This document shows positions 2,263 to 46,545 of a stretch of 64,000 nt of DNA, in pieces (within the stretch, counting starts at the first letter, position 1; the number at the start of each line of letters is the position of its first letter). The position numbers were made by a program, and so were the translations under genes. The stretch comes from Xestospongia bergquistia (taxonomy: Eukaryota > Porifera > Demospongiae > Haplosclerida > Petrosiidae), in the NCBI GenBank assembly GCA_963965975.1, contig OZ014412.1:10893849-10957848 (forward strand), read 5' to 3'. The notes beneath the pieces were generated by a model that saw nothing but the letters and a program-made list of their open reading frames with translations, ran no database searches and had not been told where the DNA came from.

Positions 2263-4026
2263 TCATTTAAAAGTCTTCAGAACAAGTTGAGCTACAGATT
2301 TAACAAACAGATTCTTACTGGTACGTAGTTGCTCCTTAGCCTTAGCTTGAACTACAGTAAAGTCACATAATAACATATACATTAACTACAAATTTAATAT
2401 ACCTCTGTTCACATAATCTGGACTAGGTGGCAGACCACAATTTCCAAAAGCAATGATAGTTTCTCTCTTGGCTTGACAGCTTGGACGTTTGAGAGACCTT
2501 GATAAAATTTGAGGGATACCTGGGACACCTAAAAATGAAATGAATTGCATTAGGCAATAATTTGTGAATAAAAGAAATAGTACCTGCAGAAAATGTGGCT
2601 GTTATAGGAGTATTGATGGCCTTATTAGCAGTTCTTAATGTTGTAAGAGCCTCTGACATGAACTGTCTTTCCTTTGATGTTGGTTTAAACTACAATGTTA
2701 TACATGAATATATTGGTATGGTCAAGAGCTATTAACCTGGTCTGGAATCCCTTGTTGATGATAATATATATGTGTACTTCGTATATACATAACTCCTGTT
2801 ATTAACAGTGTAGACTATATAATTATATTGTTATCAGATTAATTACTTACCATAACCAACAAAATGTCTCTGAGCAGCTCCATTAGAGATCACAACCCCA
2901 ATGATTTCATCATACACATGAAGTGTAGGAGTTCTTTTAGTTATTAATGTCCTATCCTATAGTATTATACATAACACAAGTCTTATATATCTACATATAT
3001 ACCCCTTTCTTCACAGTGACAATATTGTTTCTATAATATACTTTAGCTCCAACAGGTACCACAAATTTAGTCCTATCTGGGCCATGTCTAAATCTTTCAC
3101 CAAATATCTCAATCTAATATTTAAAAATTTATAAATGTCTAAATTTTATCTCTTACATTACTGCTTCTGCTTTCTTCTCTCTTTGTTACACCACCTGTAG
3201 AAAACATGTCAGAAGAAGGAACACATCTGGAATAAAAAATTCACATTGCTACATTATAACATGTATATCTTCTCTAACCTAACTGTAAAGTCATAACCAC
3301 AGCCATGACAACATTGACTACTTGTGAATGAGATCTGGAGTGATCCAATGATTGATTCAAAGTTTTTGCAATTTTGGTTAGTTCCACATAGTGAAATTTC
3401 TCCAATTTGATCATTCTTCAATCTCACCTCATCAAGACATTCACCTATTATTATTATAACACAATATATAAGATGTTTGACTGGATTATCACATTTTACC
3501 AGAAGAACTTTTGGGCAGATCCAGACCAGTACAATAAAATTGTATGGTTTGTTTCTCTTGACATTGGATGTTATGAACACAAAACTGTTGAGCTGGATAA
3601 CATCTGAAATAAATTATAAGGTATAAAACAATGTATTGCAACATTGTACTCAACTGTTTAAGATTAAAATGATTAGGATCCCTAATGTAGCAGTTCTTTG
3701 AACCATCTGATTCAGTATCACAATCAATGTTAGTGGCCACACCATTTTCTGGAAATTCACATATTGGAAGACTCTTCTTAACTTTGAAATTGTAGCCCAG
3801 ACAAACTTCTTTACTAAAATGCAGAACCAACTCATAGTTGTTATAATGATCATTATCAATCTTACTTTTTTCCATCTACTAACCCAATAATACCCTGATC
3901 ATTTGCAAAACTTTCAGCACAGTCTGCTAAGTTCTTGTCTTCTGGTCCACTAGAGCCACAAGAACATTTTTGAGAATTAGTTTTAATAACTCCATAAAAC
4001 AGAAATAAATAAAGAGAAATCTTCAT
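2263..4026 (-). CDS. Secreted CUB-like family protein, copy A (intact, 418 aa)
   Basis: Eleven exons (3866-4026, 3655-3813, 3500-3603, 3279-3444, 3157-3226, 3003-3113, 2851-2956, 2737-2795, 2584-2689, 2403-2528, 2263-2351) total 1257 bases in one frame with GT/AG introns of about 40-110 bases. Residues 1-18 are a signal peptide (MKISLYLFLFYGVIKTNS). A cysteine-rich part follows; exons 3-4 look like a CUB domain (ECLDEVRLKND, EISLCGT, SLQISFTSSQ, GYDFTVR). Exon 5 is basic with KREESR, a possible protease site. The C-terminal half, exons 6-11, I do not recognise; it contains VPVGAKVYYRNNIVTVK and HFVGYGVMYIRST. Probably extracellular; function unknown. The start is the ATG 3' of a small 5'UTR intron and is conserved in B, C and E. 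The CUB call is inference from the motif pattern. Confidence 0.8.
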
Positions 4027-4027
4027 T

Positions 4028-4330
4028 CTGATTAGAAAAAATGATTCATTCATTTAATTAGTAAACTTACAAAATACCTTAACTTTAGAGATGAGTTAGC
4101 AGTGACAAATAACAACTGTTGTGTTTCATTAGAAATATGATCTCTGTGAAATCCTTTTCATTGACTGACTTATATACAAACTTTGACTTTCCCTTATATT
4201 ATACTGTAAGAATAACACTCCTATTTCTTAAAGTGGGAAGTGTGTTGACTGATAAATCAATTAGGTGACAGGATATATATCCACTTAATCCTACAATCAA
4301 GTGGGTGATGTAACAAACTGGATTTGAAAA
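4028..4330 (-). promoter_or_regulatory. Promoter and 5'UTR of copy A
   Basis: Minus-strand TATATAAG at 4169-4176 lies 150 bases before the ATG. A non-coding leader exon ends at 4078, followed by a 50-base intron (4028-4077) whose acceptor abuts the start codon. An upstream block around 4245-4320, containing TGATAAATCAATTAGGTGAC on the plus strand, is conserved at the same place in B, C and E. The spacer from 4330 to 6000 is array repeat without a gene. Confidence 0.6.
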
Positions 4331-6008
4331 ATTTGGTCTAGTTACTCCCACAAAGGCACCTCCTATTATGACTATTGATAGAATATGTCATAAACATCAT
4401 TCAAATGTTAATATTACTGCTGTATTTATTACTGTTTAATAAGACTGAACTTATAAATAAATAAATATATGACTGTATAATGTAATATTAGATACATTTC
4501 TTAGGTTACTGTTGCTAGTCTTGTATTCAGACTATATACGTCCTGGCAATCTATTTGAGTTTAGTTAACATTGTCTTGAAGTAATTATTTCTTTAGAAGT
4601 CCATTCAGCTGGAGATTCTTGTAATTTTTATAATGAATCTCCAAGTTAATTTGGTACCATATAATTTGAAAATTTTCCCTGTAATAATTAAGTATGTAAT
4701 ATGATACCGATACCATCCTCTAAACCTGTCATTAAGCATCTGACATAATAATATACTATTAATAAAAACTTATAACGAATGCATTACACTAAAAGTACAA
4801 AAGTTAACTTAGTAAATACTTAACAACTTCATGAATATTATCATGATAACCACAATCTATAATAATATACTACAAGTATATAGCAAACAGTTAAAAATGA
4901 AAATTCAAAGTTTAATTGATGTTTAACATACACAAGCACACACTAAAGGTGTAGTTAACAACATTAACATCAATGGCTCTAGTTCTCCTCCACATCCTCA
5001 TTTAAATCATGTGCTAATGCAACACTACTATATACAGCATTTTAAACAATATTAGTCATATACTAACCCATTAAATAAATAGAAAAGCCTTAGATAAATA
5101 TATATATATCGCTTAAGTTTTTATAGAAAATTTAACAAGTTATATTCATTTATCAATACTTATAATCAAACTGGAAGTCAACTTCAACTTTATAATGAAT
5201 AATTAAGTGGAGAGATACCGTTGGTATATAATTATATTATATTGGAAAACATCCAAAAGACTTCCCATGTTGTGTGTGTGAGAGACTATATGAAACAACT
5301 TAACAAGTGAAGATCTGTACTGACATCTCCAGTTGACATAGTTTTAGGAAAAATTGTGAACCATTTTGTATTTAGATAGGTCTAGTCAATACATGGACCT
5401 GTTTTATGACTATTATTATCATAACTTCTTTTATTCTTTCAATTATACCAGTTATATAATGCATTGTGGGCCAGCAGACAATTCTTTTCTTGAAATCATT
5501 ACTGATGGATTTACTTTAATTGTAGAGTTGTGTTTTTCTTTTCAATATATATTATCTATTATGTATAAGCAGATAGAAAGCATGACAATAGCTACCACAA
5601 ATGTTTTTATATGATTTATATTAGAAGATATTGATTACTTTGTGTTGGATGGAGTCAACAGATCAACAAAGTGACTGTACTCCCAGAATGCTTAATTTAA
5701 CTACAATGTTGTTCATATAATTTAATGAGAATTTAATACTATAATCCCGAATCCCTAAACCTTAAACAATGGGACCTAAATTTCATATTACAGCATGACC
5801 TTCTATTACTAGCACTCTAGACGCTTCTTTATCTTTATTATAACTTGATATGACATTATAAACATGTACATATATCAACTATCAAAGAATAATATTAAGC
5901 ATTAATTGTGATTCTATGAAGGTAGTCAAAATCAATTATTACTATTGTATTAAGTTCTACGTATAATACAACAATATTTATATTAAGTCAAGAATATTAA
6001 TCTTATTA

Positions 6009-7804
6009 TTATCCTGATCGAGGTGCCCCTTTTATTCCTGGTGTTCCTGTTTGTTGTTTAAAAGTCTTTAGAACAAGCCGAGCTACAGATTTAACAAGAA
6101 AGTTCTTGCTAGTACGTAGTTGTTTCAAAGCTTCAGCTCGAACTACAAGTAAAGTCATATAATGACATATACATTAACTAATATTTAAATATACCTGTCT
6201 TAGGATCAGGTAGTTCTCGCGGAACCTTACAAGTTCCTTTAGCAACAATAGTTTCTCCTTTGCCTTGACATTCTGGACCGTTGCGAGATCCTGATAAAAA
6301 TGAAGGGACACCTGAAAATGAAAAGAATTGCATAAGGCAATAATGTCTAAATGAAAAATAGTACCTGCAGAAAGTGTGGCTATTATAGGAGTATTGACAG
6401 CCTTAGTACCAGTTCTTCTTAATGTTGTAAGAGCCTTTGACATGTACTCCCTTTCCTTTAATGTTGGTTTAAACTATGGTGTTACACATAAATATATTAG
6501 AAAGGTCAAGAGCTATTAACCTGGTCTGGAATCCCTTGTTGATGATAATATATATATGTACTTTGTATATACATAACTCCTGTTATTAACAGTATAAACT
6601 ATATAATTATATTGTTATCAGATTAATTACTTACCATAACCAACAAAATGTCTCTGAGCAGTTCCTCTAGAGATCACAAGACCAAAGATTTTATCATATA
6701 CACGAAGAGTAGTAGTTCTTTTCCTCATTAATGTCTTATACTGGAAATACTTCACATAACAAAAGGTTTATACATCTAGATACATACCCCTTCCTTCACA
6801 GTGACAATATTGTTTCTATAATATACTTTAGCTCCAACAGGTACCACACATTCAGTCTTTCCTTGAGAACATCTAAATCTTTTATCTAATATCTCAATCT
6901 AATATTTAAAAAATTATAAATGTCTAAATTTTATCTCTTACTGCTTCTGCTTTCTTCTCTCTTTTTTACACCACCTGCTGAAAATATGTCAGAAGAAGGC
7001 ACACATCTAAAAGAATATTTCACATTGCTACATTATAACATGTATGTCTTCTCTAACCTAACTGTAAAGTCATAACCACAGCCATGACAACATTGACTAC
7101 TTGTGAAAGAGATCTGGAGTGATCTAATGATTGATTCGAAGTCTTTACAATCTTGGGTTGCAGTTCCACATAGTGAAATTTCTCCAATTTGATCATTCTT
7201 CAATCTCACCTCATCAAGACATTCACCTATTATTATAACACTATAAAAAAATGTTTGACTGGATTATCACATTTTACCAGAAGAGCTTTTGGGCAGATCC
7301 ATACCAGTACAATGAAACTGTAGGATTTGTCCCTTTTGACATTGAATATTATGAACACAAAACTGTTGAGCTGGATAACATCTGAATTAAATTATAAGGT
7401 ATAAAACAATTTATTGCAACATTTTACTCAACCTATTAAGATCAGAATGATTAGGATCCTTGATAATACAGTTCTTAGAACCATCTGATTCAGTATTACA
7501 ATCAATGTTAGTGGCTATAGCATTTTTTGGAAATTTACATATTGGAAGACCATTCTCAACTTTATATTTGTAGCTCAGGCAAATTTCTTTACTGAAATAC
7601 AGAACCAACTCATAATTGTTATAATGATGATTATCATACTCACCTTCTTCTCTTTACCTGTCCAGTGATACCTTGTTCATTTGCAAAACTTTCAGCACAG
7701 TCTGCTAAGTTCTTGTCTTGTGGTCCACTAGAGCCACAAGTACACTCTTGAGAATTAGTTTTAATAACTCCATAAAACAAAAACAAACAAAGAAAAATCT
7801 TCAT
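6009..7804 (-). pseudogene. Secreted CUB-like family gene, copy B (one damaged splice junction)
   Basis: All eleven exons seen in copy A are recognisable, from signal peptide MKIFLCLFLFYGVIKTNS to a longer C-terminus ending in GAPRSG. The CUB-like part has ECLDEVRLKNDQIGEISLCG and CCHGCGYDFTVR. At the exon 5/intron boundary near 6945-6950 about five bases present in A, C and E are missing. The only GT donor left shifts the reading frame before exon 6, and I found no alternative site that restores it. Either copy B is a recent pseudogene or it makes a shortened protein ending shortly after the CUB-like half. All other exons stay open, so the damage looks young. An assembly error is also possible. 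Confidence 0.7.
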
Positions 7805-7949
7805 GCTGAATTAGAAAAAATAAGAAACTTATAATTATAAAACTTCCAAAATACCTTAACTTTGGAGATGAGTTAGCAGAGACAGAGAGATAACTACTGT
7901 TGTGTTTGATTAGAAAAATAATCTCTGCAAGATCTTTTTCACAGACTGG

Positions 7950-8105
7950 CTTATATACAAAGGTTGACTTTCACTAAACATTATGCTATAAGAATAACAC
8001 TCCCATTATCAAAACTTACTGAAAGTGGGATGTATTTTGACTGATAAATCAATTAGGTGACAGGAATGTCCATTTAATGCTACAATCTAGTGGGTGATCA
8101 AACAA
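7950..8105 (-). promoter_or_regulatory. Promoter of copy B
   Basis: Minus-strand TATATAAG at 7950-7957, 153 bases before the ATG, with the same conserved upstream block at about 8035-8105. The following spacer to 8940 is array repeat without a gene. Confidence 0.55.
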
Positions 8106-8944
8106 ACTGGATTTCAAAGTTTGGACTAATTACTCCCACAAAGGCACCCCCTATCATGACTATTGATTGTATATCATAAACATCATTCAAATGTTAATAT
8201 TATATATACTTATTAGTATTTATTAACATAAACTGTCAACATTAAAGAATGATTGGATAAGGAAATATTCGACATTTTTTATAGGCAGCTACAAGTCTTG
8301 TACATATCTAGATGGAATGCCTCTTGGCAATCCATCTGGGTACAATACTCCATATGTCCTATGTAATATGATATTGGTCCCGCCTTCTAAAATTAAACAT
8401 TAACTATATACAACAAAGTATGGATTCTCACTGGACACTATTCACTTGATAATTTTTGTTACAACATTTAGTATGATAAGTACAAAACGTTAACTGTGTT
8501 ATTTTAAATTTGCATATACAAATAATTCATCTAAAATATTATAGACATGAATTTATATGATGTGTAGAATATTTAGTAAATATTAATTACTAACTTCATG
8601 AATATAATTATAATAACCACAATCTATAATAGTATACTATAACTCTATAGCAAACAGCTAAAAATGAATTTACAAAATCACATCATAATTTAACATACAC
8701 AAACACACACTAAAGGTGTAGTTAACAACATTACCATCAATGACTATAGTTTTCTTTTCCACATCCTCATTTAAGTCATCTATTGTGAAAACATTACTAT
8801 ATATAGCACTTTAAACAATATTAGTCATATATCAGCCCATTACATAACAAGAAAGGTTTTACATGTATCTATAAAGTTTATAAAAAAATGTAACAAAACA
8901 GTATTCTTTAAATTAACATTAACATCCATGATTCTGTAATTCAG

Positions 8945-9752
8945 TTATGGTCTAAAGGGTGGTTTGGTACCTATAAAAACGAAAAAGGAGTATTAACTGT
9001 ACAATGGAATACTTATTGGTCAATAGACACTCTATTAATAAAATATTGAAAACATTACTAAACAATATATGATCAGCTCACTATGTTCAAATGGTAGAAC
9101 TCATGTGTATACTTTAACACTTAAATATAAATAATAGCATATTAATCTACACACACACACACACACACACATTTTAGTACTGTTAATAAATAAAACATTA
9201 CTATTAATACAAACCTTTATAAGGTGTAACTTCAGGCTTTACAGGCATTTTCTTCTTGACAGATGACAAGGTTAGTTTTGAAGACACCTTGTCTAAAACA
9301 GAATTATTATTTGTTATTATTACTGACTATTAGTACTTAGTATGTATTAAGGTACATCTGTCTATCTATTCATCTATTTATTCATCCATCCATCCATTTG
9401 ACAAGTCAGATACTTACTATTAGTGGTCTTTGTCTTTATCTCATGGCTCTGAGGTTGAACCTATACGATATGTATATCAAAGTACATATACTAACATCAT
9501 ATAGTTATTATATTAATAAATGTTATAGTAATCTACAGTAGATATTCTTATGTTATATAATGTAATTCAATCTACTAAATAGAGCTAAAACAGACCTTGA
9601 CTTTCTTTGATTTTTGTTCATTAGATGTGTTTTCTGGTCTCAGTCTTTTGCGTCTTTCAGTTATACCACTGATCGATAGCTTATCCTATAACACAATGTA
9701 ATATTGTATGATGTAATACTGTATGATATTGACACTGACTTGTTGAATTGCT
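8945..9752 (-). pseudogene. Relic of the last four exons of the NuSAP-like gene
   Basis: Minus-strand exons matching exons 9-12 of the gene at 19,723-25,022: ITERRKRLRPENTSNEQK, VQPQSHEIKTKTT, SSVKKKMPVKPEVTPYK and the ending GTKPPFRP. Introns and microsatellites (AC run at 9149-9170, CATC run near 9380) are also shared. Similarity stops at about 9750, at a point matching about 20,534 in the parent, right at the end of parental exon 8. It has no start or upstream exons and was copied passively with gene copy B. Its frames are still open, which suggests a fairly recent duplication. The stretch 9760-10,950 is array spacer without a gene. Confidence 0.85.
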
Positions 9753-10959
9753 GGACCCTCCCACACATATTGGTGAAATGACTAATAGATGGTTGTAATA
9801 AGCTCATAATAGAAATTGATCAAATATTGTTTTCATTTCTTCTTTATTCTTTTGTAGCCAATAATATTTCAGAAACCAAGGTGCACTAGATGATGAACTA
9901 CATGTATATATATGCTTTTGTATCTCAACACTTTAGAAACAAAACTATTGATTTCAATAAAAACTAGCGAATTGCCTATAGAACTAGCCCATTTGATTTT
10001 GGCATAACCTATTATAGACATTTTAATCATAACAAGTATTATTTCAAGTATATAGTATACTATAACTCTATAGCAAACAGTTAAAAAAGAATACACAAAA
10101 TCACATCATAATTTAACATACACAAACACTAAAGGTGTAGTTAACAACATTACCATCAATGGGTATAGTTTCTCCTCCACATCCTCATTTAAATCATGTA
10201 TTTGAATCATGTACTGAGACAACACTACTACAGACAGCACTTTAAATAATAATAGTGATACACCAAATAGAAAAGTTTAAATGAATATATTTTAGGTTTT
10301 ATGAAAAGTTTAACAAGCTATGTATACATTAACATCCTCATGACCATGTTTGAATTTTTGCAATGAATTTTTGCAATGAATTTTAAATAAAGAAATATCA
10401 TTGGTATACACTTACAACATAATTATTGGAAAGCATTCAACAGACGTCTCAAGTTGTGTGCATGAGAGACTATATGAAACAACTCAACAAGTGACCATGC
10501 ATAATGACATTCCTAGTAATTGACATAGTTTTAAGAAAAATTGCAAACCATATCCCATTTAGGTTTGAGCGAGTCAACACATGGACCTGTTTTGTGACCA
10601 TTGTTACCATGACTTCTTAAAATCTTTTAATTTCACCAGATCTCTTGCTGATCCAAATCTATAATACATAGTGGGTCAGCAGACACTTCTTTTCTTGAAA
10701 TCATCCGGGTCTCCTTATCATGGAGTTAATTAACTGATTTATTGTTGTAGTTTTGTTTTGAATATATACTATATCTAGCTACTATGTATTAATAAAAAAC
10801 ATGACTCTAGCAGTATAGTATTAGCAGAGAGCATGACTAGCTTATGAAATCAACTGTTAGCACTGTGCTAACTTATAGATATATTTCAAGAATAATTATA
10901 TTAAGTCAAGAATGTTAGTCTTGTTATCCTAATCAAGGTGCTCCTTTCATTCCCAATTG

Positions 10960-12513
10960 TTATTTAAAAGTCAGAACATGGTGAGCAACAGATTTAACAA
11001 ACAGATTCTTACTGGTACGTAGTTGCTCCTTAGCTTTAGCTCGAACTACAGTAAAGTCATATAATAACATATACATTAACCAATTAAATTATACTTTCAT
11101 CTTTATCAATTAGCCCTGTAGCAGTTCTTAATGTTGTAAGAACCTCTGACATGTACTGTCTTTCCTTTGATGTTGGTTTAAACTACAGTGCTATACATGA
11201 ATATATTGGTAAAGTTAAGAGCTATTAACCTGATCTGGAATCCCTTGTTGATGATAATATATATATGTATTTCGTATATACATAACTCCTGTTATTAACA
11301 TAGTAAACTGTATAATTATATTGTTATCAGATTAATTACTTACCATAACCAACAAAATGTCTCTGAGCAGTTCCATTAAAGATCAAAACACCAAAGATTT
11401 CATCATAAACATGAAGTGTAGTAGTTCTTTTAGTTATTAATGTCCTATACTATAGTATTATACATAACATAAGTCTTATACATCTATATACATACCCCTT
11501 TCTTCACAGTGACAATATTGTTTCTATAATATACTTTAGCTCCAACAGGTACCTCACATTCAGTCTTTCCTTGAGAACATCTAAATCTTTTATCTAATAT
11601 CTCAATCTATTATTTAACAAATAATAATTGTCTATGTTTTTAATCTCTTACATTGTTGCTTTTGCCTACTTCTCTTTTTTTTACACCACCTGCTGAAAAA
11701 ATGTCAGAAGAAGGCACACATCTGAAAGAAAAGTCATATTTCTACATTATAATATATGTGTCTCTCTAACCTAATTGTAAAGTCATAACCATAGCCATGA
11801 CAATGTTGACTACTTGTGAAAGAGATCTGGAGTGATCCAATGATTGATTCAAAGTTTTTGCAATTTTGGTTAGTTCCACATAGTGAAATTTCTCCAATAT
11901 GATCATTCTTCAATCTCACCTCATCAAGACATTCACCTATTATTATATCACTATATAAAAGACGTTTGACTGGATTGTCACATTTTACCAGAAGAGCTTT
12001 TGGGCAGATCCATACCAGTACAATGAAACTGTAGGATTTGTCCCTTTTGACATTGAATATTATGAACACAAAACTGTTGAGCTGGATAACATCTGAATTA
12101 AATTATAAGGTATAAAACAATATTTCAACATTTTACTCAACTTTTTTAGATCAGAATGATTAGGATCCTTGATAATACAGTTCTTTGAACCATCTGATTC
12201 AGTATTACAATCAATGTTAGTGGCTATGGCATTTTTTGGAAATTTACATATTGGAAGACCATTCTTAGTTTTAACTTTGTACCTCAGGCAAACTTCTTTA
12301 CTAAAATACAGAACCAACTCATAATTGTAATAATGATCACTATCAAACTTACCTTTTTCCCTCTACTAACCCAATAATACCCTGATATTTTGCAAAACTT
12401 TCAGCACAGTCTGCTAAATTCTTGTCTTCTGGTCTACTAGAGCCACAAGAACACTCTTGAGAATTAGTTTTAATAACTCCATAAAACAAAAACAAACAAA
12501 GAAAAATCTTCAT
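10960..12513 (-). CDS. Secreted CUB-like family protein, copy C (short C-terminus)
   Basis: Same order of exons as copy A, with signal peptide MKIFLCLFLFYGVIKTNS and CUB-like motifs EISLCGTNQNCKNFES and GYGYDFTIR. Exons 1-8 are open with good splice sites. The region of exons 9 and 10 is altered: the 3' half of exon 9, the intron and the 5' part of exon 10 are missing, so exon 9 runs into what was the end of exon 10 (LRTATGLIDKDE) and then splices to the final exon (LFVKSVAHHVLTFK, stop). The product would be roughly 40 residues shorter than A. Copy D has the same internal loss. The donor after KDE is not strongly supported, so the exact junction is uncertain. Confidence 0.7.
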
Positions 12514-12660
12514 GGCTGAACTACAAAAAATTATAAAATTATTTAATTAGTAAATTTACAAATACCTTAACTTTAGAGATGAGTTAGCAGTGACAGATAA
12601 GTACTGTTGTGTTTCAGTAGAAAAAAAAAACTCTGTGCAAACGTTTTTACTACTGACTGG

Positions 12661-12810
12661 CTTATATACAAACTTTGATTTCACTAAACAATATAATGTA
12701 GGAATAGCACTCCCACTACTGATAGTGGGAAGTGTATTGACTGATAAATCAATTAGGTGACAGGATATGTCCATTTAATCCTACAATCTAGTGAGTGGTG
12801 GGGATTTGAA
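12661..12810 (-). promoter_or_regulatory. Promoter of copy C
   Basis: Minus-strand TATATAAG at 12661-12668, 155 bases before the ATG, with the conserved upstream block at 12735-12800. The stretch 12,810-14,390 is array spacer with one copy of the conserved module. Confidence 0.55.
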
Positions 12811-14401
12811 AGTTTGGACTAGTTACTCCCACAAAGGCACCTCCTGTTATGACTATTGATGGATATGTCATAAATAACATACAAATGTTAATATTATATT
12901 TATTAGTATTAAACAAAACTGAACTTTAACATTAATGAATGACTGGATAATTTTATATTTGATATATTTCTTAAGCAGTGGCTAGTCTTGTATTGAGACT
13001 GTATGCCTCCTGACAATCTATCTGGGTTTAGTTATCATTGTCTAGAAGTAAGTATTAATTTTGTTTAAAAGTTGTTACAGCTGGAGATTCCAGTAATTTT
13101 TATAATGAGTCTCCAACTTATTTATTATAATAATGTATCATTTAATTTAAAATTTTTCTCTCCAATAATTAATATTTAATATGATACTGTCCTACCCTCT
13201 AAACCTATCATTAATTATACACAACAAAGTATGGGTTCTTAATGTATATATAGCCCTTTTGCTAATTCTTATCTCAAAAATTAATAATCTAGACATTTCA
13301 TTTTATGAAGAAGGCATTCAAATGACTGCTAAACAATGTACTATTTATAAAAACTTATAATGAAAGCATTACAATATTGAATATGTAAAGTACAAAAATC
13401 AACTTAGAAATACTTAATCACTTCATGAATACAATCATAATAACCAGAATATAGTATACTATAGCTCTATAGCAAACAGTTATAAATGAAATACAAAGTC
13501 TAATCAGTGTTTAGCATATACAAACACACACTAAAGGAGCAGTTAACAACATTACCATCAATGGCTATAGTTTCTCCTCCACATCCTCATTTGAATCATG
13601 TATTATGACAACATTACTATAGACAGCATTTTAAACAATAATAGTGATATACCAACTCATTAAATAAATAGAAAAGTTTAAATGAATATATTGTTAGGTT
13701 TTATGAAAAATTTAACAAGCTATATATACATTAACATGCTCATGATTATGTTTGAAGTCAACTTCAACTTTTTTAAGTGGAGAAATATCATTAGTATATA
13801 GTTATATCATATTTGGAAAACATCCAACAAACTTTTCAAGTTGTGTGTAAGAGAACCAATTGAACAAGTCAAGATCTATAATGACATTCCTAGTTGACAT
13901 AGTTTTAATAAACATTTTAAGCCATATCTTATTTAGATATGAGCAAGTCAACACAAGGACCTGTTTTGTGATCATTGTTATCATGACCTCTTATATAAAT
14001 TCTTTTAATTTTACCATTTCTCTTGCTGATCCACATGTATACTGCCTGGTGGGCCAGCAGACAATTCTGTTGTAGTGGTGTTTTTTTTGTTTTGAATATA
14101 TACTATCTAGCTACTATGCATTAGTAAAAAACATAGTAGCAGCTGCATGTACTAACAGAAATTTAATTTGACATGTCATCCATATTATATATAAATTGAT
14201 GTATCAAATTATAAACATATACACACACCAACTACCAAAGAATGATCTTAAGCATTAACAATTTTGGTTTATATGAATTTAGACAAAATCAACTGTTAGT
14301 ATTGTGTTAAGTTATAGATATAATTCAAGAATACTTATATTAAATCAAAAATATTAGTCTTATTATTATCCTGATCGATGTGCTCCTTTCATTTCTGATT
14401 G

Positions 14402-15228
14402 TCATTTAAAGGTCTTGTGAACATGGTGAGGAACAGATTTAACAAACAGATTCTCACTGGTACGTAGTTGCCCCTTAGCTTTAGTTCGAACTACAGTAAA
14501 GTCACATAATGACATACATTAACTATCAAAATGATATACTTTCATCTTTACCAGGTGGTCCTAAAGTAGTTTTTCTTATTTTTGTAAGAGCCTCTGACAT
14601 GTACTGCCTTTCCTTTGATGTTGGTTTAAACTACAATGTTATACATGAATATATTGGTAAGGTCAAGAGCTATTAACCTGGTCTGGAATCCCTTGTTGAT
14701 GATAATATATATATGTACTTCGTATATACATAATTCCTGTTATTAACAGTGTAAACTATATAATTATATTGTTATCAGATTAATTACTTACCATAACCAA
14801 CAAAATGTCTCTGAGAAGTATAGGGGTTCTTTTAGTTATTATTCTCCTATACTGTAGTATTAGACATAACATAAGTTTTATAAATCTACTTATACCTACC
14901 CCTTTCTTCGCAGTATTGTTTCTATGATATACTTTAGGTAACACAAATATAGTCATAGCTGGATCATATCTAAATCTTTCACTAAATATCTCAATCTAAT
15001 ATTTAACAAATAATAATTGTCTACGTTTTTATACCTTACGTTGCTGCCTCTGCCTTCTTCTCTCTTTTTTTACACCATCTGCTGAAAACATTGCAGAAGT
15101 AGACACACATCTAAAAATATAATGTCACATTGCTACCTAATAGCGTGCATGTCTCTTTAACCTAACTGTAAAGTCATAACCACAGCCATGGCAACATTGA
15201 CTACTTGTGAAAGAGATCTGGAATGATA
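14402..15228 (-). pseudogene. Secreted CUB-like family gene, copy D (5' half missing)
   Basis: Contains the end of exon 4 (up to the GYDFTVR region), exons 5-8, the fused exon 9/10 (ending LGPPG) and the last exon. Part of exon 7 is deleted near 14,815. Similarity ends abruptly inside exon 4 at about 15,228, where unrelated sequence begins. There is no promoter, signal peptide or first three exons, so this is a truncated gene. It shares the shortened exon 9/10 structure with copy C. Confidence 0.85.
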
Positions 15229-15239
15229 ATATATATTAG

Positions 15240-16145
15240 ATTTTGTATATACATGACTCCTAGGGACAAAGACATAAAATTTTAATAACAAACTTATTAT
15301 TTAATCGAATCTGGGAGTCTACATTTGTGACCTGCTACGAAGTCTTTGGTAACGTCTATTTGTGAAATACAATCAAGTTTTTCTTTGTGGACATAAAGGA
15401 CCATAATGTGGGTTTAGTGGTACCTGTGTCATATTAGATCATAAATATGACTTTACCCTCCTAAGGGTTATAAAAGATCTGCATTAGTTGCTTGCACAAC
15501 CAAGATAAGCTTCGTTATGATAAATACTTCTGACAAGTATTCTGAGGCCTCGCATTAACACTTTAAGTACTCAAGTACTGTGTCAAAATTAATGTTAGAA
15601 GATTCATTATCACCAAAGCAACTGGACTTGATATCGTCTCCATAAAAGCTACATGCAAATAAGTACTCTTCTTCAAAAGACTCTTCTCTACCAGCTTTAA
15701 TGAGTAGCTCTTGTAATTTTTGATAAATCTGATATCCAAGTTTGATTTTTGATAAGTCTGATATCTTTTCTCTACCAGCTTTAATGAGTAGCTCTTGTAA
15801 TTTTTGATAAGTCTGATATCTTGTTTTTATGGACTCTATAACAAAATCTAATGCTTCAAAATAGATTTGATAAAAATCTCACAGTGTTTCAGGCAAAATA
15901 GAAGCAGATCCTTCATCATATCGTCTTGGCCACTAAACAGGTTGAGCACATGTGAACAGATCATTGAATCCCTTGCTTCAAGATAGTGTAGCCATGTCCA
16001 AGATTTGTACCAAGATACTTGGAAAGGTCTAGAGACAACTTTTGTCTTTCCAAAACTGGCTCTTTGAATAATTAAAATCACATGGCTGATGTTTCTCTGT
16101 AAAATTCTCCATATTTCTAACAGCTGGTAGGCATACATAAGTGGT
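15240..16145 (-). pseudogene. Foreign coding-like segment interrupting the array; gene not identified
   Basis: This kilobase is absent from the matching place in the other array units. On the minus strand it holds protein-like stretches in more than one frame: one at 15,848-16,138 (with SWTWLHYLEARDSMICSHV) and one over about 15,583-15,880 (with TYQKLQELLIKAGREESFEE and YLFACSFYGDD, ending in a stop). A short open stretch (VHKEKLDCISQIDVTKDF) follows at 15,290-15,400. An 84-base in-frame tandem duplication repeats YQKLQELLIKAGRE. I do not recognise the gene. The FEEEY..ACSFYG pattern faintly recalls the DHR2 region of DOCK exchange factors, but this is too weak to name it. Confidence 0.45.
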
Positions 16146-16531
16146 TTTTATTATGTGTATAGGATATAATTTCATGTATGAGATAAACATATGTAATTAT
16201 TTACTTATTTTTATAGCAACTATTATTATTAACAATGAATATTCAATACATAGTGGGCCAGCAGACACTTCTTCATCCAAGTCTTTTTATAATAGAGTCG
16301 ACTGATTTATACTAATTGTTGTAGAGTTGGTTTTTTCAATATTATATTATCTACTATTTATTAGCAGATAGAAACCATGACAATAGCTAGTACATAATGT
16401 TTTTAGATGATTTATATGAGCATATTTTGATTACTTTGTATTGGATGGAGTCAACAGATCAACATAGTGGCTGTACTCTCAGGTGCTTAATTTAATTACC
16501 ACATTCTTCATATACTTTAATGGGAGTTTAA

Positions 16532-16568
<37 letters not shown>

Positions 16569-16843
16569 TCCATAAACCCTTTAACCTTAAACATTGGAAC
16601 CTAAATTCACATTACAGTATAATGTTCCGTTACTAGCATTGTAGACACTTATTTATCATTATTATAACTTGATATGACATTATAAATATGTACATATATC
16701 AACTATCAAAAAATAATCTTATGCATTAAATTGTGGTTTCTATGAATTTAGTCAAAATCAACTATTAGTATTGAGTCGAGTTATAGATATAATACATGAA
16801 TATTAATATTAAGTTAAGAATATTGATCTTATTATTATCCTGA

Positions 16844-18652
16844 TCAAGAACCTCCTTTCATTCCTGGTATTCCTGTTTGTTCTTTAAAAGTCTTCAGAAC
16901 AAGCCGAGCTACAGATTTAACAAACAGATTCTTACTGGTACGTAGTTGCTCCATAGCTTTAGCCCGAACTACAGTAAAGTCACATGATAACATATACATT
17001 GACTACAAATTTAATATACCTATCTTTTCAAAACCAGGACCAGGTGGTCCTGGCAGACCACGACAAGTTCCTACAGCAATGATGGTTTCTCCTTTGCCTT
17101 GACATTTTGGACGTTTACGAGATCCAGATAAAAATGGAGGGATGCCTGGGACACCTGAGAATGAAATGAATTGCATAAGGCAATAATGTCTAAATGAAAA
17201 ATAGTACCTGCATAAAATGTGGCTATTATAGGAGTATTGACAGCCTTATTACCAGTTCTTCTTAATGTTGTAAGAGCCTTTGACATGTACTCCCTTTCCT
17301 TTGATGTTGGTTTAAACTACAGTGCTACACATAAATATATTAGATAGGTCAAGAGCTATTAACCTGGTCTGGAATCCCTTGTTGATGATAATATATATAT
17401 GTACTTCGTATATACATAACTCCTGTTATTAACAGTGTAAACTATATAATTATATTGTTATCAGATTAATAACTTACCATAACCAACAAAATGTCTCTGA
17501 ACAGTTCCTCTAGAGATCACAACACCAAAGATTTCATCATATACATGAAGAGTACAGGTTCTTTTCCTCATTAATGTCCTATACTGTAGATATTATACAT
17601 AACACAAATTTTACATCTACATATATACCCCTTTCTTCACAGTGACAATATTGTTCCTATAATATACTTTAGCTCCAACAGGTACCACAAATTTAGTCCT
17701 AGCTGGGCCACGTCTAAATCTTTCACTAAATATCTCAATCTAATACTTAAAAATGTATAATTGTCTAAATTCTATTTCTTACGTTACTGCTTCTGCTTTC
17801 TTCTCTTTTTTTTACACCACCTGTTGAAAACATGTCAGAAGAAGGCACACATCTGGAATAAAAAATTCACTTTACTACATCATAACATGTATATCTTCTC
17901 TAACCTAACTGTAAAGTCATAACCACAGCCATGACAACATTGACTACTTGTGAAAGAGATCTGGAGTGATCTAATGATTGATTCAAAGTTTTTACAATCT
18001 TGGCTTGCATTTCCACATAGTGAAATTTCTCCAATTTGATCATTCTTCAATCTCACCTCATCAAGACATTCACCTATTATTATATCACTATATAAAAGAC
18101 ATTTTAATGGATTGTCACATTTTACCAGAAGAGCTTTTGGGCAGATCCATACCAGTACAATGAAACTGTATCACTTGTCCCTTTTGACATTGAATATTAT
18201 GAACACAAAACTGTTGAGCTGGATAGCATCTGAATTAAATTATAAGGTATAAAACAATCTATTGCAACATTGTACTCAACCTATTAAGATTAGAATGATT
18301 AGGATCCTTGATAATACAGTTCTTTGAACCATCTGATTCAGTATTACAATTAATGTTAGTGGCTATGGCATTTTTTGGAAATTTACATATTGGAAGACCA
18401 TTCTTAACTTTGAAATTGTAGCTCAGACAAATTTCTTTACTGAAATACAGAACTAACTCATAATTGTTATAATGATGATTATAACACTCACCTTCTTCTC
18501 TCTACTAACTCAATAATACCCTGATCATTTGCAAATCTTTCAGCACAGTCTGCTAAGTTCTTGTCTTCTGGTCCACTAGAGCCACAAGAACATTTTTGAG
18601 AATTAGTTTTAATAACTCCATAAAACAAAAATAAGCAAAGAAAAATCTTCAT
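16844..18652 (-). CDS. Secreted CUB-like family protein, copy E (intact)
   Basis: All eleven exons are present and open, joined by GT/AG introns; exon 1 is 18492-18652 with signal peptide MKIFLCLFLFYGVIKTNS. The CUB-like part has ECLDEVRLKNDQIGEISLCG and QCCHGCGYDFTVR. Exon 7 reads YRTLMRKRT, as in copy B, its closest relative. Exon 10 is longer than in A and contains a short collagen-like run (GLPGPPGPG). The C-terminus ends TGIPGMKGGS. The predicted product is slightly longer than A. It lies next to the NuSAP-like gene on the same strand. Probably secreted; molecular role unknown. Confidence 0.8.
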
Positions 18653-19956: not shown

Positions 19957-22900
19957 TAGTACTGTCAATAAAAAACATTATTAGTAATATAAACCTTTAT
20001 AAGGTGTGACTTCAGGCTTTACAGGCATTTTCTTCTTGACAGATGACAAAGTTGGTTTTGAAGACAACTTGTCTAAAACAGAATTATTATTTGTTATTAT
20101 TACTGACTATTAGTACTTAGTATGTATTAAGGTCCATCTGTCTATCTATTCATCTACTTATTCATCCATCCATTCATTCATTTGACAAGTAGGAAGAGTC
20201 ATGTACTTACTGTTAACAGTCTTTGTCTTTATCTCATGGCTCTGAGATTGAACCTATACGATATGTACATCAAAGTACATACTAACATCATATAGTTATT
20301 ATATTAATAAATGTTACAGTAATGTACAGTAGATATTCTTATGTTATATAATGTAATTCAATCTACTAAATAGAGCTAAAACAGACCTTAACTTTCTTTG
20401 ATTTTTGTTCATTAGATGTGTTTTCTGGTCTCATTCTTTTGCGTCTTTCAGCTATAGCACTGATAGATAGCATCCTATAACACAATGTAATGTAATGCTG
20501 TATGATATAATACAGGATGATATTGACACTGACTTGTTGAATTCTTTTTTATGAGCTTTATCAAATTTCATACTGCTAGTACTTTTTATTGGTATTTTAC
20601 TAGCAGTTGGTTTGGATGCAACATAAGTAGGATCATTTTCTATAACAAAAATGAAAGTTTATATTTTATCAAAACAACAGACAATTATAACTTTTTTTAT
20701 TGAGCAAATATCATATTTACTGAAGCAACATTGTTGTTAGCTATTATGTAGATTATTATGAGATAGTTTAGATCATTCTGTCTACTATAAATGATTATAA
20801 ATATATGCAAAACTTCAAGTTAGCTAATTTAAATTTAGAATAGAAAACACTGTATAACTGCTTAAATCTATTTCAGGTTAGTTCCAACTCATGTAATGAG
20901 AGGATTGACTTATAAATAACATTACAGTAGAGAAGAAACATGAAGAATGCTTTACTACTCAACAAAGTGAAGTATTGTATGTCTGATTATTTACATATAG
21001 TAGAGGGCATGTCCAACAGATGTTTATTTATTAGTTGATGAGTGGGCATGTCTAAGGAATTCCCCAAACTTTATTGACCATAAACAGGAAGTGTGCTATG
21101 TTTTGATAACATAGAACATTCTATAATATACTATATGATGCAGTTATCATGGTGAGTGTGGTTTTGAAACAATTCTGTCATTACTTTTTTGGTTTTGTAT
21201 TACTTATTGATTCCTTTTAATATTAGTGGTTTCTAAGGCAGGTTAAGTTAGCATTATAAATAACAATTAAAACATTTATGTTTCCCATATCTTATTTTTA
21301 ATGTTGATAGGTATCATGCCTTTAGCTGCTTCCTCTAATTCCACACCTCTAACTATGTGAAACACTTTACATGAGCAAACTTAAGCATGACAATGCTACC
21401 TGGATAAGTAATACATAACATTTTTAGAAAACTGCACAAAGGAAGAGTGATTAAAGCTTTAAAAGAAAAATAGGCTATTCAAACATTTGAAGACTCACAA
21501 TAAATCATATACTATACATGTGATTTATGGCACAAGAGGCGTGACATCAGCCTCTTAACCACACCTCTCATGCCATAATTATGCAGTACACATTGTCTAT
21601 AGTATAATAGTACAATATATAAATACAATATTCTACTAGTTTATCTGTATATAATTTAAACACACTCACTTCTTTCTTCCACTCTAGCCTCCAATAATGC
21701 CATTATCTCATCATGATGACTATATATAACAAGAAATCATATACTATATTCAAATGTATATACATTATATCATACAAAAACAAACAACATAAAAGAAATG
21801 GACACAATAATACTACTACTAATATTATTAGTATTATTGTGTATACTATATATAATATATATATTTCCTACATTTCTGTTAAAGTGATGATGACTATTAC
21901 ATCATTTAATCAACAATAGCAGTATATGTACATGTAGTACAAATTAATACACAGAGTTTACCTAGCTGTGTTCTCCTTCTCTTGTGGCAACGTTGATTTT
22001 AACAGAGGAGACTCTAGAGATACCATTGAAAACTCCTTCATCATTGAAATGGGAACAGGAGAGAAAGGATGTTCTTTGTCATATGTAGTATTGAGACCAG
22101 TTGAAGGCCATTTATTTGTAGTCTCATTTCTGAATGCCCATGATCCATTTAGAGCAGTCTCTAAAATTTAAGAAATATGTCAATTATTTAAATAACAAAG
22201 TTATTTATTTATCATTATATCATCTACTTGACTAATTACAAGTCTGTTTAAACTTTACTATTTAATTAAAAGAGTAAAATAGATTACAGAACTTGTATAT
22301 TATAATATTATTTAATAATTTGAACTTCGTACAAAGATAGTCAATGATACATAATATGTATACAATTGTATTTTATTTTCAATAGAGAAGGAGAAACTAT
22401 AGCAATAATTCTTCTTTAAATCTCAAAAAGGTATCTAAGTAACTGGATATCTAGTACAGGCTATATGTACTGGTTGTGTGATACCTATATTAATAACTGT
22501 TAACAGTAATTAAACTGTCTGTGCCATGAATTGATTGTATTGTGTAATTCGTCTTTGTCATCATTTTTTCTATAATGATTTCAAGCTACTTATTATTATT
22601 ATTAGGTGTTCACTTCCCATTTAAACACATGACCTCTTGGAATTGGTAGAAAACTAAATTGTAATTATTTCTACCATCTATGTAGTCAATTGACCAATCA
22701 GATTCCCCTAATGAAACTTTATAAATCACTTATAAACCTAGCTACTAAAAGGCTTATAAGATAGCATTTATGAACCTGTACCTCAGGCACTTTGTGTGAA
22801 TATTAATATATAGCAAACAGTGAACAATGTGATGTACTATTGTATACATTGCTATGATTACTATGTTTAATGTGGTAACAGGAAATGTGAGAGGGAGTAT

Positions 22901-34000: not shown

Positions 34001-37000
34001 TGTATAGGGTCAACGTCTAGAGAGAGTATTACAAAGTAATAAAGTCTACTCTGAATTTGAAGAGATACCTAAACTTAAGCTGGTACAAACAACACACACA
34101 CACACACACACATGTACTATTAGTATAGACATTATGATATTATACTAATTAACGTCTAATTACATGTGTGCATGTACTAATGAATATTATTCTTCCATCA
34201 ATTTAGGACTTAGATGTTAGTGCTGGCTCACATCCTAATAACACTTGTAAAAACAGATACAAAGATATCCTTCCTTATGAAGTGAGTAGTCCAATATATA
34301 CTTCATACCATATTATGTCTCAGACATACTGGAATAATAAATAATATGTGTTTTATTATACTATATCACAATATATCTATTCTTTAGTATAACAGAGTCA
34401 AATTGGATCCAACCAACAATATCAATAACAGCGATTATATTAATGCCAGTCATGTATCAGTAAGTACATTGTAACACACTTTATATGCTGAGAATAACAC
34501 TATAAAATAAATGCTTAACAATACAGGATAACCATAATCAGCTATAGTATTATAATGCTAATAATAGTTGATGATATTAGAACATTATACAATATATAAC
34601 ATTTTAAAATTTATCACATTCTCTTTTATTTCCTTTTACTAGTTTACTGTCAAACATCATACTCATTATTATATAATATCTCAAGGACCAAACGAACATT
34701 CATGTGCTGACTTTTGGCAAATGCTATGGGAACAAAGAACACAAATTATATTAATGTTAACTAATGAAGTGGTTAGTTCACATTTAATGCACACAGAAAC
34801 CTTGTATTATTAGTGGGTGTAATGGAGTTGACTATACATGTAGACTGTAGACTCAGTTTGCTGACTTTGAAAAATGGGCACCACCCTTGATGTTAATTGA
34901 TATGTCTCATGTTCTTTATCGTGCTTTATTTAGACAGCATTTGCTGATGATTTACTACTTTCATATGATGTTAAGCCTTTAAATCATCACACTAGTATTT
35001 TATAGAATATAAGCCACTGTGTGTCCTCTAAACCTTTCATGTCATCACTACAAGTTTGTATCAAGATATGAATGCATAAGAAAAGAAAACTGTTTCTAGA
35101 ATAAAACTGGAATGAGGTTTAATGTAGTCTTTAACAATTTGGGAATTGCCTACTACCCTTGTATTAAAATAATATCATAATTTATACTTTTTAGATATGC
35201 TCTCATTTTAATTTCAAAAGTGTTTTAATATATTACATATTTATTTTGTATTTCTTATTTAAATGAATTGCTGTTTATTTTATTTTTACAGGAAAATGGT
35301 AAGCAAAAATGTCATCGATATTTTCCTGATGATCAGGACAAATCGGCTCATGTCCAATTTGAACAAGTAAACACACAAATCATAACATTTCTTCTTTTCC
35401 TTGTAACATACTGTAACATCTGGCACTCTAGACAGTTTAAAAATATATAACAATTTCATAAGTACATTTAGTAACATATTGGTCTAAACATTGTGATGTA
35501 ATATACTGTAAAATGTCTAAATATTTAGCACTCTAGCGTCAAAATAAATAATTATTTCAAAGAAAATTCATCAATGCCTCCATAAATTTACCTCTGTTGT
35601 TATGTATTACTCTAATTTCAACAAATTCCTCTAATTTTGACAAATAAACAAGACTATTATAGGAAATACAAGCTTGGGAACACAAGCCTGTCATATTAGA
35701 GATTGTTTGCTGAGGTCTGTCTGTGTCTCAGATTTGAAACTTCCAGTTATGTTTATTAGTTCATTTTCTTATACTTACTGTCTTAACAAACATTTCTACC
35801 ATCTACAATTAATTCAGAAGTGGTGACACTCCCTAATAAAAAGTTAAAATTAATTATTCAAAGAATGAATATTCTTAAACATCACCCTTAAAATTTACTA
35901 TGCAAACATCTAATATGCCAAATTTTTATAAGTTTTACAGTAATATATTTCACAGTTTTAAAATCTTGCCTATAATGATCAATGATGTCACTGCATTGGA
36001 AACAATTAAGAATATTTCTAGTATTTTAATATATTAGTAATAATGGATTTCATATTTTTTTAGTATCGTGTGTCTTCAAAATTTGTGGAAATGTCTAATA
36101 CTACAATAACAAGAGGATTAACAGTGAGACATATACCTTCAGGAGAGGTAAGATATTAAAAGAAAATATTCTTATAAAATGTGTAAAATAATGACATCAT
36201 AATGAAATCATAATGACATCATAATAGGTTGTAGTGTTAATTATTATAAGTGATATTTTTTTCAGGAAAGAGAGATAATGCACATCCAGTATATTCACTG
36301 GCCTGATCATGGTATTCCTGAAGATCCACAACCTTTCATTAGTAAGTCATTCATTTACATATATATAAATGTAGATAACAATCAAATATGTACTATCTAT
36401 GTAATACAAACTTCATATGTTAATAATTAGTAGATTATATTGATAGGAAGAGCATCTGTTAGTAAGTTATATACAACTGAGATATTTATAATAACTAGTT
36501 TATTATTACTTGTGTGAATGTATTAAGGTGCATTTCAACTTTTAATCTGTATTGTATGATTCTTGAATTTGACATATTATTGTTAGTACATTATTAAATT
36601 GTCTTTTCTTTACTCTAGCATTTCTCAAGATGGTGAAGTCATTAAAGTACAAGTTTGATCGTACTATTCCTATTGTGGTACATTGTAGTGCTGGAGTAGG
36701 ACGTAGTGGTGTACTAGTACTAGTAGATATGTTAACAGAAACTTATGATGCTGGAGAGGTAAGCATCAGCTTCCTATTGTTAGCACTAACACTACATGCT
36801 ATAACAGAATTTCGCTACATTAGATTGGAGTCTAAGCCCAAGGGAACTTTGGAATTTAGAAGCCCAGAAAATGTTATAATAACGTCTATGAGCGAATGCA
36901 CATAGACTTCTTACTCTCCCAGAGTTCTAAAGTTCCCATTGGTTGAGGATTCCAATTGATTTAGAGTATAGCATTATAACATTTACTATATTCAAAACTT

Positions 37001-44743: not shown

Positions 44744-45652
44744 CTAATTTCCTAAATACGTTTGCCAGCTATGATAGAGTCCATCAACTAATAGAGCTGC
44801 TACAAGTGATGGTTCCTTGTTAGAATGTCTTGTACAGGAAACTATAGCATTTATATAATCTTGTCTACTACTACCACTACTCTGTGTATCTTTTTGAACA
44901 TAGTATGGATGAATAGGAAATGGAATTATTACCATCATTGTATAACCAGCTAACAGACGACACATACGACCATTACCATCAGTAAAAGGATGAGTATCAA
45001 CAAAGTTAAATAAGAGCCAAGCGGCAGCTTTGATTAGGAACACTAACTTATCATAACTGCTTAAGGTAGACTCTTGTAACTGTTTCATATGGATATTATG
45101 ACGATCAATTACATTATATAATCTGTCTTCTACTAGTTCGTGTGATGGATAGTTGTATCGCTCACCATCAGGTTTTATAGTGTATACATTAGTGTCTCGT
45201 ATCTCACCACATTTATGATGTAAGCCAGCCATTAGTATTCTATGAATGTCTGTTATTTGTTGTACAGTGATCATTCCTGTACGCTCCATTTCATTACTTA
45301 GTTCATCTATAGTTGTTAGAGCTCTGTATGTGTTCACTGTTTCACACCTTTCACGCTGTAATGGAGTAGACGACTCTTTCTTTCTTAAAAGTGACCCAAG
45401 AAGCTCTGTTGTCTCTTCTCTCGTTTGTGTGCCTACGTCTTCACCAAGATTAGATTGATGTACAAAATCAATAAAGAGAGAGTGACGCTTCTCTTGCGGT
45501 AGTATTTCATCACCTTGTAAAAATTCTTCCATCCATGTTACTATATCCATAAGCATCTCTGATGACGATTTTGCATCTTGATTTGATCTCCAAGGCGGAT
45601 TCTCCACAATCGAAAATCGAGTTCCCTCGCTCATTTTGTTTGAAAATTGCAA
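44744..45652 (-). CDS. Fic-domain protein (predicted AMP-transferase), intronless
   Basis: A single uninterrupted frame gives 302 residues. The catalytic motif HPFTDGNGRMCR starts at residue 221 and matches the Fic consensus HPFx(D/E)GNGRxxR with its histidine. The upstream GEIRDTNVYTIKPDGERYN fits the Fic flap region. Fic enzymes transfer AMP or related groups to target proteins. I see no signal peptide, membrane helix or clear (S/T)xxxE(G/N) inhibitory helix, although TTIDELSNE near residue 113 lies about where one might occur. An alternative start at 45,634 (MSEGTR) matches the start region of the neighbouring paralogue better. The lack of introns, in a region of intron-rich genes, suggests a retrocopy or a transferred gene. 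It is divergent from a second Fic gene about 100 bases away. Confidence 0.9.
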   Translation of the reverse strand: MQFSNKMSEGTRFSIVENPPWRSNQDAKSSSEMLMDIVTWMEEFLQGDEILPQEKRHSLFIDFVHQSNLGEDVGTQTREETTELLGSLLRKKESSTPLQRERCETVNTYRALTTIDELSNEMERTGMITVQQITDIHRILMAGLHHKCGEIRDTNVYTIKPDGERYNYPSHELVEDRLYNVIDRHNIHMKQLQESTLSSYDKLVFLIKAAAWLLFNFVDTHPFTDGNGRMCRLLAGYTMMVIIPFPIHPYYVQKDTQSSGSSRQDYINAIVSCTRHSNKEPSLVAALLVDGLYHSWQTYLGN

Positions 45653-45758
45653 CTGGTAATCAAACTACTATAGTTCCACCCACCGGAGACTAACTGCTCA
45701 TATCATTGCTGAGTCATCGTCATCATTAGGGAATTTCCCGCCAAGTTTAAAGAATTGA
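45653..45758. promoter_or_regulatory. Shared bidirectional promoter of the two Fic genes
   Basis: Only 106 bases separate the two start codons. The stretch has a TGAGTCA (AP-1-like) motif at 45710-45716 and a TTTCCCGCC (E2F-like) motif at 45734-45742. Both matches are short and their use is inference. Confidence 0.45.
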
Positions 45759-46545
45759 GTGATGGACAGTAGACTTCACTATAAAATCACAGAAAATCCT
45801 TCATGGAGAAGTTCAGCATCGTCAAAAATGATCAAAGATGTAGTAAGACTGATGACTGATACTAATCTAACCATTCAAGGTGACTTTATGGATAAATTCC
45901 ACGTCTACGCGCGACAACATGCCATTCAAGAAAAAAGGGACGTGGATAGGCGATGTACTAAAGTTGCAGAGACTATGAAAATGTTATACGATTATAGAAT
46001 CGAACTGATGGAGGATGGTTCAGTCCTAAGATATTCAACTGTGCCACTCATCTGTAAAATTCACAGATCTTTAGTAGACCGTCCAGATGCTGGTAATTTC
46101 AGAGTATGCGAAGCATACACAGTTAGACCAGATAACTCTAGACATGACTATCCTACTGTCAATGACATTGAACATTTACTATATGGGGTAGTGGATGTCC
46201 ATAATCAGCATATGGAATTTTATTATGAAAATATGAACTCAGAAACACTTGAAAATAAGCTTACATATAATCGTTAAATGTGCTGCATGGTTTTTTTGTC
46301 GTGTTATCAGTGTTCATCCTTTTGGTGATGGTAATGGTCGTGTGTGTCGTTTATTGGTCAATAATGTATTAATGGAATTGACTCCTTTTCCTGTTCTCTT
46401 GTATAATGTTGGTAATGTAACAAAAGATCATTATTTTAATGCTATAGTACAATCACAAGATGATTATTACAGTCCTCCTTGTGATTTGTCTGCTATACTT
46501 GTGGATGGACTATGGTATGGTTGGAAAGACTACATTGCAACTTGA
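45759..46545 (+). pseudogene. Second Fic-domain gene, head-to-head paralogue, frame broken once
   Basis: The N-terminal part (MMDSRLHYKITENPSWRSSA) parallels FSIVENPPWRSN of the minus-strand gene, and CEAYTVRPDNSRHDYPT parallels its flap region. The catalytic half, with SVHPFGDGNGRVCRLL and a C-terminus VDGLWYGWKDYIAT parallel to VDGLYHSWQTYLGN, lies in a different frame from the N-terminal half. So the gene is intact in outline but has one break between the two halves. No intron signal explains it. It is also intronless. Either it is a young pseudogene or the assembly contains an error. A possible AATAAA signal lies at 46577-46582. Confidence 0.8.

Follow-up and report, generated by a model that had tools for sequence, protein, structure and literature searches.

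A tandem family of predicted secreted proteins with a divergent CUB domain, a basic linker and an unrecognised C-terminal domain

Introduction

As set out in the introductions of two papers, PDGF-C and PDGF-D bind their receptor only after proteolytic removal of the CUB domain, and the activators named there are tPA, uPA and matriptase, not furin (PMC4816573, PMC6063412). The gene family that we describe here shares with these factors the order of its parts, in that the proteins are predicted to be secreted and carry a CUB-type domain, then a linker, and then a C-terminal module. It differs from them in that the C-terminal half contains between one and four cysteines and no sequence likeness was found; the PDGF cystine-knot growth-factor domain had no Pfam match in any member scanned. 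Because no growth-factor knot was found, we do not regard the family as PDGF-C/-D. At most, by analogy, it may work as latent PDGF-C/D do, as a precursor that is cut between modules.

The window is a stretch of 64,000 nucleotides (C2:10893849-10957848), and the genome that it comes from (146 Mb, 21 contigs) was searched for relatives. Our main reading, to which we give roughly even odds (about 0.5), is that the locus belongs to a multi-gene family of secreted precursor proteins that are cut between modules and whose C-terminal module is the active part.

Results and Discussion

Five Copies of One Gene in the Window

The minus strand carries five copies of one gene in head-to-tail orientation, running from 18652 down to 2263 in the order E, D, C, B, A. 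The sequence-only reading had placed the array at 2263..18652, with signal peptides, phased exons (11 or 10 in A, C, and E), and 418 residues for A. The gene models return the same limits, since the ATG of E is at 18652 and the stop codon of A ends at 2263, and they give the same exon counts and the same length for A. The N-termini are hydrophobic and signal-peptide-like, the exons of A and E start in phases 0,2,2,1,2,0,0,1,0,1,1, and A, B, C, and E have GT-AG introns of 43-55 nt. The features, in window coordinates, are as follows.

2263..4026, minus strand: copy A, intact, 418 aa, 11 coding exons (spliced model)
4026-3866, 3813-3655, 3603-3500, 3444-3279, 3226-3157, 3113-3003, minus strand: exons 1-6 of copy A
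2956-2851, 2795-2737, 2689-2584, 2528-2403, 2351-2263, minus strand: exons 7-11 of copy A
4028..4077, minus strand: probable 5'UTR intron with its 3' end just ahead of the start codon of A (AAGTTAAG / gtatttt...ctaatcag / aATG), read by eye
6009..7804, minus strand: copy B, same 11 exons, frame broken beside the exon-5 donor (6942)
10960..12513, minus strand: copy C, 369 aa, 10 coding exons
14403..15236 (both ends approximate), minus strand: copy D, remnant with a disrupted frame, covering mid exon 4 through the last exon
16844..18652, minus strand: copy E, intact, 435 aa, 11 coding exons
17905..18229, minus strand: exons 3-4 of E, encoding residues ~107-198, the greater part of the CUB-like domain
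17629..17852, minus strand: exons 5-6 of E, basic linker (KKRE; furin motif RFRR, residues 228-231) and start of the C-terminal domain (VPVGAKVYYRNN)
16844..17739, minus strand: exons 6-11 of E, the unrecognised C-terminal half

Copy B, not named in the sequence-only reading, matches through exon 5. Beside the exon-5 donor it is missing 5 nt relative to A, which breaks the frame after residue 220; the predicted product is thus 220 aa long and comprises the N half only, with exons 6-11 open in their own frame. Copy C has 10 exons because exon 10 is missing, and its exon 9 terminates in new sequence. The cysteines had been thought to be kept in A, C, and E; this holds for A and E but not fully for C, in which the CUB core is short of two, two more are missing along with exon 10, and two others are present. 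The 5'UTR-intron pattern of A is also seen by eye in B, C, E, and in copy F, which lies outside the window.

A second duplicated segment (9192-9700 and 19972-20500, 95% over 207 nt) has been carried along with the array; by eye, it resembles exons of a basic low-complexity protein. Elsewhere in the window we note a protein tyrosine phosphatase exon (36573-36905, plus strand; Y_phosphatase, E 1.1e-9), a Fic-domain protein (44744-45664, minus strand; Pfam E 1.4e-15), and, adjoining the Fic gene on the opposite strand, a gene at 45759-46277 (plus strand) with an N-terminus that is similar by eye and with no Pfam match at E 0.01. A long open frame at 48468-50327 (minus strand) has sub-threshold COR-A and Roc matches and resembles a Roc-COR-like GTPase, and the end of a secretin-type 7TM receptor lies at 62516-63268 (minus strand; 7tm_2, E 4.1e-8). 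Two long open frames beside the array, in loci L010 (3323-5602, plus strand, 759 aa) and L009 (7782-9260, minus strand, 492 aa), look related by eye and have no Pfam match at E 0.01; they are perhaps another unnamed family.

Relatives Beyond the Window

The array continues to the left of the window with three intact genes, F, G2, and G1, and at least two remnants. Copy F (436 aa) has the full 11 exons, and G2 (435 aa) and G1 (453 aa) are older relatives that both have 9 exons: A, C, E, and F are 79-85% identical to one another, identity to the array is 29-34% for G1 and G2, and G1 is 27% identical to G2. Members are also present on two contigs other than that of the window. Three weak genome matches (E 0.1, 0.28, and 7.7), all confirmed by profile search, pointed to H (contig C11) and to I and J (contig C9), and an additional genome match led to a further relative, M. 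The full-length set thus holds ten proteins (A, C, E, F, G1, G2, H, I, J, and M) in six lineages. A further locus on C9, K, was left out of this set, as no in-frame start was found. A match at C9:4276450 (E 0.29, genome search) was dropped as a relative; its reading frames are what we take, by eye, to be transposase-like. Searches of viral and prokaryote collections gave 52 and 66 pattern matches, respectively, from which no relative was confirmed. We found no description of the family among the literature matches listed, and an earlier description is possible.

All ten full-length proteins have the same order of parts, namely, signal peptide, Cys-rich part, CUB-like domain, linker, and C-terminal domain. 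A second strong hydrophobic stretch was not found, as no 19-residue segment outside the N-termini scores above 1.5 (Kyte-Doolittle). The exon structure is likewise shared: G1, G2, H, I, and J have 9 exons with identical start phases (0,2,2,1,0,1,0,1,1), and M has this structure with small changes. Two extra introns (45-52 nt), one after the CUB part and one inside the C-terminal domain, occur only in the array genes and are absent from all six of the others. Depending on the root, the array could have gained both introns, or both could have been lost elsewhere. Two introns of G1 are GC-AG (C2:10881832 and C2:10881375), with the donor GCAAGT in both. The tree separates the array (99/99) from the dispersed group (97/97), with long branches for M, G1, G2, and J. 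The family is real and still evolving, and it consists of presumptive secreted proteins of an animal genome that join a known kind of extracellular domain to an unnamed tail.

A Divergent CUB Domain in the Middle Quarter

The N-terminal half had been described as CUB-like. The profile comparisons support a divergent CUB domain, but it spans residues ~104-200 and so covers the middle quarter only; residues ~20-103, the first ~85 of the mature protein, form a separate, unnamed Cys-rich part. Copy F passes the gathering cutoff of Pfam PF00431 (22.0 against 21.4 bits), E (20.9) and A (17.7) fall below it, and copy C matches the same entry at E <= 1; CUB was not matched in Pfam by G1, G2, H, I, J, or M. 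When the middle block of the family was aligned with nine CUBs from seven loci of the same genome, three of them near-identical, hhalign returned a probability of 72.9% (P 3.9e-6) over 91 collinear columns, and the N-terminal block and the C half gave 0.1% against the same CUBs. A profile of H, J, and M had a sole match among the PDB sequences, 2wno (TSG-6, E 0.0072, query 116-240), which we take to be the CUB domain of that protein. The family aligns collinearly with PF00431 from the second CUB cysteine onward, through to the end of the domain, whereas its N-terminal strands are unrecognised and the cluster on the window's contig has extra cysteines (CCHGCG).

Clustering itself is shared with other CUB genes of this genome, on C1 and C13. 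Eight CUB exons lie on both strands within 41 kb at C13:5130373-5171113, and further groups are present at C1:5.64-5.71 and 10.52-10.56 Mb. These clustered genes were not recovered with the family proteins in searches at E up to 10, 1, and 5.

A C-Terminal Half Common to All Six Lineages

The claim that the C-terminal half matches no known family is upheld by the database scans, as its ~200 residues have no credible match in Pfam (all ten proteins scanned) or in NCBIfam and the PDB sequences (nine proteins each, I left out). The profile search of copy A that had been proposed likewise returned nothing credible for this half. The half is nevertheless common to all six lineages. A profile built from seven C halves of the cluster on the window's contig finds those of M (E 1.3e-12), I (2.3e-8), J (5.1e-8), and H (3.1e-7), against a best value of E 0.25 among 800 shuffled controls. 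Used alone, the C half of A found nothing outside that cluster at E up to 10 (37 matches, of which the best candidates were scored). The seven sequences share 23 invariant columns, and crude propensities suggest a strand-rich core followed by helical stretches joined by a variable linker.

Several weak matches were rejected as chance because they are far below the cutoff and are not common between lineages: DUF4835/PorD (0.03-0.2), the sialidase N-terminal domain (0.0089, G2 only), KH_PARP14 (0.11, G1 only), and three NCBIfam entries (0.09-0.14, one member each). The best PDB-sequence matches were also taken as chance, both that of copy A (a nucleoporin, E 0.11) and those of a six-protein profile of the cluster (glutamine synthetase, E 1.2) and of the seven-C-half profile (tRNA deaminase, E 1.2).

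A Recurring Furin Motif and a Cysteine Pair Around the Linker

The motif R-X-[KR]-R, which is a candidate cleavage site for furin, is present in six of the ten full-length proteins (E, F, H, I, J, and M), and all six occurrences fall in the linker between the CUB-like and C-terminal domains, which makes up 426 of 4,231 residues (10%). That of M is placed later in the linker than the others. With the array represented by F, four of the six lineages have the motif in the linker, against a mean of 0.12 in whole-protein shuffles, and a count of four was reached in 0/20,000 whole-protein and 0/20,000 linker-only shuffles. The motif had been chosen with the sequences already in view, ahead of the shuffle test. 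If A or C represents the array, the count drops to three of six. Out of 20,000 shuffles each, whole-protein shuffling reached three in 4 cases for A and 2 for C, and linker shuffling in 16 and 6, respectively; on this count the placement is still rare, but the signal is weaker.

An uncut matrix or adhesion protein would have to be considered here, in which the CUB and C-terminal domains bind as a single unit, with the basic linker serving only as a hinge (flexible, protease-sensitive, or matrix-binding). CUB domains are frequent in matrix proteins, and A, C, G1, and G2 lack the motif altogether; the linkers of A and C keep only KR-type dibasics, and neither KR nor RR occurs in any part of G1. 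The short Gly-X-Y stretches that E and F have close to the C-terminus point the same way. These amount to about three triplets at most, however, with a shorter stretch at the end of B, and none is seen in A, G1, G2, H, I, J, or M; a long collagen-like repeat was not found. The confinement of every furin motif to the linker, at lineage counts that shuffling so rarely reaches, also speaks against a mere hinge, and we consider the uncut protein a possible but less likely alternative to a precursor that is cut in the linker.

An extra pair of cysteines is either kept whole or missing altogether. In H, I, J, and M, a GC immediately precedes the site in the linker and a Cys (SCN) lies in the last helix; at these places neither is found in A, C, E, F, G1, or G2. 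Two different cysteines are present at a later point in the linker of C and of B. Since the pair follows the main split of the tree, its distribution may reflect one event. The entire C half of M contains just one Cys; if that residue is paired within the chain, its partner therefore has to be on the N side.

Selection and Turnover in the Array

Conservation of the copies through repeated duplication had been read as a sign of selection. That conclusion survives in a milder form, as exon likeness by itself is weak evidence because the introns (12-17% different) and intergenic blocks are nearly as alike as the exons. The dN/dS comparison that had been suggested, run here as codon models on the five array copies with B included, gives omega of 0.52-0.66 for the N half and 0.55-0.69 for the C half; a run over three models gave nearly the same values, 0.49-0.66 and 0.55-0.70. 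Neutral divergence, which, together with a lack of expression, had been named as an outcome that would count against this reading, fits worse under two models: 2dlnL for omega = 1 is 4.7/10.4 (N) and 5.0/11.9 (C), with kappa for omega = 1 taken from a grid of seven values. As B is in the set, the selection signal should be weakened. Pairwise omega ranges from 0.32 to 1.04 in the N half and from 0.58 to 0.97 in the C half (ten pairs each), with intervals that include 1 for 5/10 and 9/10 pairs, respectively (14/20 overall); for H and I the values are 0.72 and 0.59, and both intervals include 1. Taken together, these values support selection on the array copies, probably of a mild, purifying kind.

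Two further explanations turn on these data. In one, the array is a decaying repeat in which the window copies are young, functionless duplicates and only the old members matter. The similarity of introns and spacers to exons would be expected on this account, as would the frame-shifted B, the broken D and left-flank fragments, and the loss of exon 10 and four cysteines in C. Yet A, C, E, and F are open over 10-11 exons with intact splice sites, and omega = 1 is the poorer fit in both halves of the array, which leaves this explanation very unlikely. In the other, the genes are an innate recognition or effector family whose copies bind or kill microbes, with copy-number turnover driven by a host-microbe contest. 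Turnover is fresh, as intact copies neighbour truncated and dead ones, and the N and C halves give different trees in the array, as expected if copies exchange pieces. Against this stand an omega below 1 in both halves, with no sign of positive selection at the level of whole halves, and the failure of the Pfam and NCBIfam scans to find a lectin or antimicrobial domain; we judge such a family unlikely.

Proposed Mechanism

Under the precursor reading, the signal peptide would be removed and the disulfide-rich N-terminal part and divergent CUB would fold first. A furin-type proprotein convertase would then cut the basic linker after the CUB domain, and the cut would free, or expose on a disulfide tether, a ~200-residue C-terminal module with a strand-rich core and helices, which we infer to be active and to bind the partner. 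In H, I, J, and M, the Cys before the cut probably bridges to the Cys in the last helix, so that the halves would stay linked. In the array, A-F, the pair is absent, and the C-terminal module could therefore be released. Tandem duplication would keep adding copies, of which some decay and the survivors remain under mild purifying selection. The role of the product might be that of a ligand or lie in surface recognition. The gene structures, the common architecture, the motif positions, the co-occurrence of the two cysteines, and omega below 1 are observations; cleavage, the disulfide, the active part, and the role are what we read into them. Roles in defence, matrix, or self-recognition, as the sequence-only reading had offered, are possible, and none is singled out. 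That the family amounts to a new class of extracellular ligands or recognition proteins, diversified in this animal lineage through tandem duplication, in which a CUB-type latency module is furin-cut from a new domain and which exists in tethered and free versions, is a suggestion that we put forward tentatively and with some doubt.

Conclusions

The array allows live, truncated, and dead copies of one gene to be compared, and one branch of the family is set apart by two short introns. With a CUB module that can be recognised, a candidate cutting site that recurs, and a domain that has no name, the family is a concrete and testable candidate for study. If the host is a sponge, its secreted ligands or recognition molecules would bear on the origin of animal cell-cell communication.
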